This document shows, piece by piece, positions 22,158-23,964 of a stretch of DNA of 33,767 bases. The DNA comes from Xanthobacteraceae bacterium (GTDB taxonomy: Bacteria > Pseudomonadota > Alphaproteobacteria > Rhizobiales > Xanthobacteraceae): the NCBI GenBank assembly GCA_030037065.1, contig JASHRW010000156.1, forward strand, positions 1-33,767. Reading direction: 5' to 3'. A program made the translations under genes and the position numbers. Below the pieces are notes generated by a model. The model was not told the DNA's origin, did no database searches, and saw only the letters and a program-made list of their open reading frames with translations. Positions within the stretch are counted from its first letter, which is position 1. The number at the start of each line of letters is the position of its first letter.

Positions 22158-22406
22158 TCAATGCGGTTTCGGCGGCGCATCCATCTGGATGATCGTCGCG
22201 CTGTTGTTGCCGCTGTGCTGCTCGATACGCGTATAGCCGGGGCGTCGTTCGATCTGCACCTGGGCCGGCATGCGACCGCCGCTCTGCAGGACGATCGCCG
22301 TGTTGCCGCCGTTTGCCACTCTTGTCTCGGTCGTTCCGTTGGCCGCATTGGCAAGCGACGGCAACAGCGCAACGCCGGCGATCGCAAGTGCGAAGATGAG
22401 CTTCAT
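22158..22406 (-). CDS. Small secreted curlin-associated or divergent curlin-like protein
   Basis: 82 aa; signal MKLIFALAIAGVALLPSLANA; NGGNTAIVLQSGG ... HSGNNSATIIQMD; ATGA overlap with upstream curlin gene. Confidence 0.6.
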   Translation of the reverse strand: MKLIFALAIAGVALLPSLANAANGTTETRVANGGNTAIVLQSGGRMPAQVQIERRPGYTRIEQHSGNNSATIIQMDAPPKPH

Positions 22407-22765
22407 GCCCACCGTCCCGATTGCGAGATGCTCGACCGGTTGAGGCTGCCGACCTGCGTCGATATCGCCGAATTCACTCCGCCGCTTTGCTTGAGTACGG
22501 CCGAGGTCGTGACGCCGACTTGTATGTTGGTGGCGATGTTGCTGGCGCCGGTCTGCGAGACGCTGCTCGAAACCGAATTTCCCGCCTGGACGACCCCGGC
22601 GAAATTGACCTTTCCGGTTTGCTGCAGCGTGACTGACGGATTGGTGCCGACCTGCACCAATCCATAGACGTTGACCGCGTTTGATTGCACGACGTTGACC
22701 TGGGCGAAGCTCGCGCCCGGCAGCAACGCCAGAATCCAGGCCGCCAAACACATCCTTATCAGCAT
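22403..22765 (-). CDS. Curlin-repeat protein (CsgA/CsgB-like)
   Basis: RBS GGAGGAG before ATG 22765; signal MLIRMCLAAWILALLPGASFA; about eight 11-aa units QVGTNPSVTLQ/QTGKVNFAGVV/QAGNSVSSSVS/QTGASNIATNI/QVGVTTSAVLK/QSGGVNSAIST/QVGSLNRSSIS/QSG. Confidence 0.82.
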   Translation of the reverse strand: MLIRMCLAAWILALLPGASFAQVNVVQSNAVNVYGLVQVGTNPSVTLQQTGKVNFAGVVQAGNSVSSSVSQTGASNIATNIQVGVTTSAVLKQSGGVNSAISTQVGSLNRSSISQSGRWA

Positions 22766-22864
22766 TTGGTTACTCCTCCGCATGCCATCCGCAGCGCCAC
22801 GCGCGGATGGGCAAATGACCCACGCCGACACCGAGGCGGCGGCGCGGGTCCTCGGTTGCGAGCC

Positions 22865-23128
22865 TTATCGCCTCTGGGTAATGATCGAGTTGTTGACCAA
22901 GCCAGCCTGCCCAACCCCCGCGGCGTTATGGTAGCCGCTCTGGCCGACGTATGAGTTGTTGACGAACCCGATCTGGGCGGTCGTCGCGGCATTCCGCGCG
23001 CCCGATTGCGAAACGGCCGAGTTGTTGAAAGCACCCACCTGGATGGTGGTCGCGGTGTTCGACTGCGCGAATGCGGCGGTCGCGAACGCCAGCGACACGA
23101 CGGCCGCCAATACCATAGACTTCGACAT
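22865..23128 (-). CDS. Curlin-repeat protein (CsgA-like)
   Basis: RBS AGGAG; signal MSKSMVLAAVVSLAFATAAFA; five 11-aa units QVGAFNNSAVS/QSGARNAATTA/QIGFVNNSYVG/QSGYHNAAGVG/QAGLVNNSIIT. Confidence 0.85.
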   Translation of the reverse strand: MSKSMVLAAVVSLAFATAAFAQSNTATTIQVGAFNNSAVSQSGARNAATTAQIGFVNNSYVGQSGYHNAAGVGQAGLVNNSIITQRR

Positions 23129-23283
23129 CTGTCAGCTCCTGTTGACGCGTGGGACCTTCATCAATGAGGAGGGGAAGGCAGGTCGTTGGGCCTTCGTCCC
23201 AGGCAAACTGTTTACCATTAATAATGCGGAGTCAACGCATAGTACGTATTTTATGGTCTAATCAAATATGGTTACGTCCTATA

Positions 23284-23302
23284 CGATAATTGCGTATTAT
23301 CG
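23284..23302. promoter_or_regulatory. Inverted repeat in the intergenic region between the curlin cluster and the antitoxin-like gene
   Basis: CGATAAT-TGCGT-ATTATCG, perfect 7-bp arms, 5-nt spacer. Confidence 0.4.
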
Positions 23303-23408
23303 GCTTTCTCGTGGACAGAGCGCCGCCGGCGACGGCCTTTCGCCGCGGGCCGTGAAAGGTGGAGGGAACGAGACCCGGCCGCCCAAAAACGAAAGCTGGA
23401 GTGGGGCG

Positions 23409-23636
23409 ATGAAAAGAGTGACTTCCGCTGACTTGATCCGCAATTTCGGGCCATACAGCGATGCGGCCTTGAGCGAGCCGATTTTCATCACTAAGAACGG
23501 CCGTGACCGACTGGTGTTGATCGGCATCGATCAGTTCAATGTGTTCCAGCACGCGCTGGACGCGCTAGAGGACGAGAAGGCGAGCGGGGACAAAACACCC
23601 GTGCGGCAAAAAGTCTCGCCGCGCCGCGCCCGGTGA
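23409..23636 (+). CDS. Type II antitoxin, Phd/YefM-like (orphan)
   Basis: MKRVTSADLIRNFGPYSDAALSEPIFITKNGRDRLVLIGIDQFNVF resembles the Phd/YefM N-terminal fold; no toxin-like ORF adjacent. Confidence 0.7.
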   Translation: MKRVTSADLIRNFGPYSDAALSEPIFITKNGRDRLVLIGIDQFNVFQHALDALEDEKASGDKTPVRQKVSPRRAR

Positions 23637-23673: not shown

Positions 23674-23964
23674 ATGGCAGCTTATGTGATTTTCGACGTC
23701 GATATTCGCGATCCAGGGCGGTACCAAGAATTCATGTCAGGCGTGAAGCCTGCCTTGGAGACGGCCGGAGCTAAATATCTCGCGCGTGGCGGCGCTCATA
23801 AGGTTCACGAGGGAGATTGGGAGCCTCGAAGGATTGTCTTGTTGGAATTTCCATCAATCGAGGCCTGGGAGTCATTCTATAATGGCGCAACATACCAAGG
23901 ACTCAAAAACGTAAGAGATGCTTGCAGCTCGGCCCGTCTGGTCAGCGTGGAGGGACTTTCCTGA
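23674..23964 (+). CDS. DUF1330 family protein
   Basis: 96 aa; MAAYVIFDVDIRDPGRYQEFMSGVKPALETAGAKYLARGG ... RIVLLEFPSIEAWESFYNG. Confidence 0.9.
   Translation: MAAYVIFDVDIRDPGRYQEFMSGVKPALETAGAKYLARGGAHKVHEGDWEPRRIVLLEFPSIEAWESFYNGATYQGLKNVRDACSSARLVSVEGLS

Follow-up and report, generated by a model that had tools for sequence, protein, structure and literature searches.

At positions 22158–23128 of the window, that is, the whole 33,767-nucleotide stretch of DNA that was analysed, three genes on the minus strand encode small secreted proteins, with coordinates and strand as the earlier note had placed them. The window is contig C251 of G000, a MAG assigned to the Xanthobacteraceae (4.39 Mb in 445 contigs, 87% complete, 3.6% contamination), and the host is a soil-type alphaproteobacterium; the label "rhizobial" attached to the locus holds as taxonomy only, nothing pointing to nodulation. 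The features of concern are:

22158–22406, minus strand: the third gene, 82 aa, secreted, putative degenerate mini-curlin, in ATGA overlap with curB
22403–22765, minus strand: curB, 120 aa, signal peptide followed by about 4 curlin repeats
22865–23128, minus strand: curA, 87 aa, signal peptide followed by about 2.5–3 curlin repeats
23129–23408, no strand: intergenic region from which curA and the Phd-like gene diverge, with a leader block before curA found conserved by alignment
23409–23636, plus strand: Phd/YefM-type antitoxin-like protein, 75 aa, Pfam PF02604
29057–31126, minus strand: TPR and sulfotransferase protein (Pfam TPR and Sulfotransfer_3), a doubtful member of the cluster

Curli are sticky amyloid surface fibres, and CurA and CurB are secreted curlin-repeat subunits of this (Csg) system. 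Signal peptides are obvious by eye at the start of all three proteins, and one ATGA provides both the stop of curB and the start of the third gene, so that the arrangement described earlier is borne out. In the curlin HMM search that had been proposed as a check, Pfam Curlin_rpt (cut-off 20.7 bits) matches CurA at 3.1e-8 (33.9 bits) and CurB at 5.2e-11 (42.7 bits), while the third protein, counted until now with a cluster of curlin make-up, stays below the cut-off (0.013, 15.8 bits) and appears degenerate and curlin-like only. CurB also matches the curlin-repeat protein of PDB entry 8c50 at 6e-17 (phmmer). The spacing Q-x10-Q occurs five times in mature CurA and eight times in CurB, compared to 0.5 and 0.8 in composition-matched shuffles, of which 0 out of 5000 reached the observed count; the AF2 model of CurB (pLDDT 46) is too poor for confirmation of a solenoid. 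The curlin cluster is real and of a known kind, in variant form. Among its neighbours, which are urea-transport, urease, ABC-transporter, acyl-CoA synthetase, MaoC and TRAP-transporter genes (most were named from their translations, and Pfam served for MaoC and the TPR-sulfotransferase), there is no csgD-, csgE-, csgF- or csgG-like ORF, in agreement with the claim that the window lacks csg secretion genes.

For the genome that claim does not stand. A PF03783 search of G000 returned a single CsgG (89 bits), whose gene on contig C273 adjoins a sister copy of the cluster; the protein has 378 aa and a lipobox, and the CsgG chains of solved PDB structures match it at 3e-20. In the HfaA/HfaB/HfaD holdfast anchor of Caulobacter, a CsgG-family lipoprotein exports small amyloid-like proteins; assignment of the C273 protein to HfaB was rejected, as it scores 24 bits there and 79.5 bits against CsgG. 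Directly upstream of csgG lies a gene for a 210-aa curlin. The end of C273 overlaps the start of contig C302 over 851 bp at 97% identity, and on this overlap rests the joining of the two contigs; beyond it, C302 carries the third gene, curB, curA and a divergent Phd-like gene in the order seen in the window, the identities being 61% (third), 58% (CurB), 64% (CurA) and 68% (Phd-like). The shared order and these identities suggest that the window holds a paralogous subunit block without the long curlin and the csgG of the sister locus. The proposal that export depends on a remote CsgG thereby gains support, the channel being encoded on another contig and linked to the putative paralogue.

The other secretion factors, for which a genome search had likewise been proposed, did not turn up: neither CsgE nor CsgF has a Pfam match in this incomplete MAG, CsgF is not found beside CsgG in G000 or in its congener G019, CsgE is found in none of the fetched loci, and an iterated CsgH profile detects no CsgC/CsgH beside the subunits in the window, on C302, in the C273 stretch or in the G019 loci. 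Compared to the E. coli protein, the CsgG of C273 carries G/D/L at the positions aligned to Y51/N55/F56 and about 16 additional residues in the second transmembrane hairpin. Loss of Y51/N55/F56 was considered as the reason for the loss of CsgF and dropped, because CsgF-bearing alphaproteobacterial CsgGs differ at these positions, too.

Some further genes accompany the CsgG-linked loci. A gene for an outer membrane β-barrel protein lies at the side of the locus in both G000 (L010:4508–5284, minus strand; PF13505) and G019 (L045:1676–2452, plus strand). The nearest paralogue of the window's TPR-sulfotransferase in its own genome (C302:2550–4499; 45%, 530 bits, the next scoring 158) adjoins the sister curlin locus, and the orthologue in G019 is positioned beyond csgG; between the two G019 genes lies an ORF whose 104-aa product is secreted and matches no Pfam family (L025:5971–6285, plus strand).

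Within the genus, 20 genomes including G000 were compared, and only G000 and G019 contain curlins, the third family and CsgG. In G019 there is a single copy linked to CsgG, in the order curA-curB-third-curlin207-csgG, with the Phd-like gene divergent. Pairwise dN/dS values are 0.2–0.4 at a dS of roughly 1, which reflects constraint in all copies; for the window copy against C302 they are 0.29–0.41, indicating that purifying selection acts on the window's curlin genes. That the window cluster is a decaying, unused duplicate is therefore very improbable: it does lack the 210-aa curlin and the csgG of the sister locus, but its ORFs are all intact, the dN/dS values are those just given and conservation extends to the leader of curA. 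Divergence is much the same in each pairing of the three copies (window–C302, window–G019, C302–G019), from which either an old split or origin of the window contig from a related strain would follow. It is unlikely, though clearly more probable than decay, that the contig belongs to another strain or species and was binned into the MAG, the supposed paralogue then being an orthologue with its own csgG elsewhere. Besides the equal distances, this reading could draw on strain heterogeneity at the C273/C302 junction and on the MaoC gene beside the cluster, for which no close orthologue was found in 12 congeners searched; against it speaks the contamination of only 3.6%, and the tetranucleotide correlation of the window with C302/C273 is 0.90–0.93, the same as between C302 and C273, although the congener G019 looks alike and composition cannot separate an old split from related-strain origin. 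The dovetailing contig ends themselves (L010:1–851 and L011:7482–8332, 97% over 851 bp) point to a mixture of strains within the MAG. Use of the flanking MaoC gene as an empty-site marker in the congeners was rejected, again for want of a close orthologue.

The region upstream of curA is conserved as well. In the alignment of the window, C302 and G019, a leader and ribosome-binding-site block, GCGTCAACAGGAGC, is identical before curA in the three loci; a scan for sigma-70 promoters and terminators found none. The Phd-like protein matches PF02604 at 5.5e-7 with 29.7 bits, the cut-off being 29.8, and its gene is found divergent beside curA in the window, C302 and G019 and in no other fetched curlin locus. 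The ORF following it (23674–23964, 96 aa) reads, from its translation, unlike a known toxin. Control of curli by an antitoxin has a precedent in E. coli, where MqsA acts on csgD (PMC4894380), which makes it a reasonable guess that the Phd-like protein is a candidate regulator of the curA promoter.

The third protein appears to be a degenerate mini-curlin, with some 2.5 repeats. It contains five curlin-type half-repeats, N-x-A-x-V-x-Q, in an 11-residue register, two of them perfect; this register was reached in 0 of 3000 shuffles (by a score written after the pattern had been seen), with CsgH and CsgF as controls at chance level, so that it supports the mini-curlin reading short of proving it. 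AF2, run on two sequences, places five strands at the half-repeat sites with low confidence (pLDDT 67, pTM 0.49); a Foldseek search of the models against the PDB gave no match for the third protein and was uninformative, and searches of plasmids and viral contigs with the third protein found nothing either. The idea that the protein is CsgH or CsgF was rejected: PF21112 does not match it at E values up to 10, while L144:8982–9380 is matched at 1.8e-10, and its profile shows no similarity to that of CsgF and gives an hhalign probability of 2.6% with that of CsgH. The protein would most likely be a minor subunit, perhaps of the CsgB type, starting or capping the fibres; a CsgH-like inhibitory role is possible. 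More doubtful, if still worth considering, is that it represents a CsgC/CsgH-type anti-amyloid chaperone in new sequence guise and not a fibre subunit. It does stand where CsgH would, next to the subunits, and no examined locus has both proteins (see below), but, apart from the negative profile searches, the mature protein contains no cysteine, whereas a distant Cys pair is a defining feature of CsgH homologues (PMC4838910), and the curlin register is present in the third protein and not in CsgH.

A survey of 399 genomes of the family found curlin repeats in 59 and CsgG in 25; 23 have both and 36 curlins only (overlap counted by hand from two lists). The curlin-only genomes, 33 of genus g24 and 3 of g22, are nearly all at least 99% complete and have no Pfam CsgG. 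These counts fit the account of Dueholm et al. 2012 (PMC3521004), according to which csgC, csgD and csgE are missing in all Alphaproteobacteria and csgF also in about half of the genera, with only curlin subunits recognisable in many. As CsgF is so often absent there, its lack does not disqualify a locus from the wider curli family (PMC3521004). In RefSeq, CsgG is missing in only 2% of CsgA-bearing genomes (PMC10192328), by which measure the present family is unusual. The loci fetched comprised 20 from the family that carry CsgG and 20 others, mostly curlin loci without CsgG. CsgF adjoins CsgG in 20 of 20 other fetched CsgG loci of the family and in G058 and G068, not in G000 and G019. Each of the 22 CsgF-bearing loci was matched by the iterated CsgH profile, as were CsgG-less loci from g22 and from other families, but the 11 CsgG-less g24 loci and the G000, G019 and window loci gave no match. 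A profile of the third family (window, C302, G019) matches the last gene of all 11 fetched CsgG-less g24 clusters at 4e-15 to 7e-9, in a first-round search, the iterated profile having drifted into all curlins. The third family is thus present exactly where the CsgH profile finds nothing, and is missing from every examined locus with CsgF or CsgH; the two proteins exclude each other in the loci examined, and the third protein takes the place of CsgH there.

Upstream of the g24 clusters, in 10–11 of 11 loci, a MacA/MacB-like gene set is found divergently, for example a MacB-type permease, ABC ATPase, HlyD-type adaptor and LuxR-type regulator at L157:1335–5076 (minus strand); it is a candidate exporter or plain synteny. 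CsgG-less G411, also of g24, encodes between two tandem blocks of curlin and third genes a 488-aa ORF (L164:9204–10670, minus strand) with a signal peptide, about 3.5 curlin repeats (Q every 11 residues) and an autotransporter β-domain (PF03797, 6.6e-40), possibly a self-exporting curlin. A Methylobacterium plasmid match to this fusion was discarded, as it reads like an autotransporter of GDSL type and lacks curlin repeats.

From the g24 loci another explanation for the window arises, namely that its cluster belongs to a CsgG-independent class whose subunits are secreted by other machinery, for instance an autotransporter or an exporter of MacAB type, while CsgG would serve the sister locus only. 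The near-complete genomes lacking CsgG, the third family ending every fetched g24 cluster, the MacA/MacB-like genes and the G411 fusion are all in its favour; nevertheless it is rather improbable, about on a par with misbinning, since both G000 and G019 have csgG joined to a third-type cluster, neither MacAB nor an autotransporter is found next to the cluster in the window, and the MacAB linkage within one genus may be synteny.

On balance, the window is judged to carry a second, channel-less curli subunit block, which most likely exports through the CsgG of the sister locus without CsgE and CsgF, with the third protein as minor subunit or stand-in for CsgH. CurA and CurB would reach the periplasm by Sec, exit by the CsgG pore whose gene accompanies the sister block and stack outside the cell as β-solenoids into amyloid fibres; the third protein would start or cap the fibres, or hold subunits back in place of CsgH, and the Phd-like protein may control the curA promoter. 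In support, CsgG is present in the same genome, linked to a sister block of the window's gene order, and such a cluster of third type also lies together with csgG in G019. Against it stand the fragmentation and contamination of the MAG with its strain-level overlap, by which the window contig could be misbinned, and the g24 clusters without detectable CsgG, so that such clusters can exist without the channel. More tentatively, the loci might form a separate curli class in which the mini-curlin replaces CsgH and CsgE and CsgF are missing, the g24 members lacking even CsgG and using another exit route, with the G000 and G019 loci as the link to classical CsgG-dependent curli.

Like the csgBA/csgDEFG system of E. 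coli K-12, the G000 loci comprise curlin-repeat subunits and a CsgG lipoprotein channel, but with the divergent residues and longer hairpin of that channel and with no CsgE or CsgF found. Like the CsgH and CsgC chaperones (PMC4838910, PDB 2N59), the third protein is small, secreted and encoded beside curlin subunits; the missing cysteines and PF21112 match and the 11-residue register set it apart. Also close are the alphaproteobacterial loci described by Dueholm et al. 2012 (PMC3521004), Rhizobiales curlin genes without csgD and csgE, often without csgF and many of them curlin-only; their extra gene is csgH, whereas here an unrelated mini-curlin is found instead and the sister copy is accompanied by a divergent CsgG that lacks CsgF at its side. 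Curlin loci devoid of CsgG have been described before in Alphaproteobacteria, those of Rhizobiales in 2012 (PMC3521004), which qualifies the description of such compact loci as poorly characterised. Apparently new are the third protein, its combination in one locus with a divergent CsgG that has no CsgF, and the conserved Phd-like gene in divergent orientation. The extent of curlin export free of CsgE, CsgF or CsgG in Alphaproteobacteria has been a standing question since 2012, for which one genome with the same subunit block with and without linked CsgG offers a natural contrast; the third-protein family provides a sequence marker by which the CsgG-less class can be traced, as well as a candidate replacement for CsgH, and both questions become testable.
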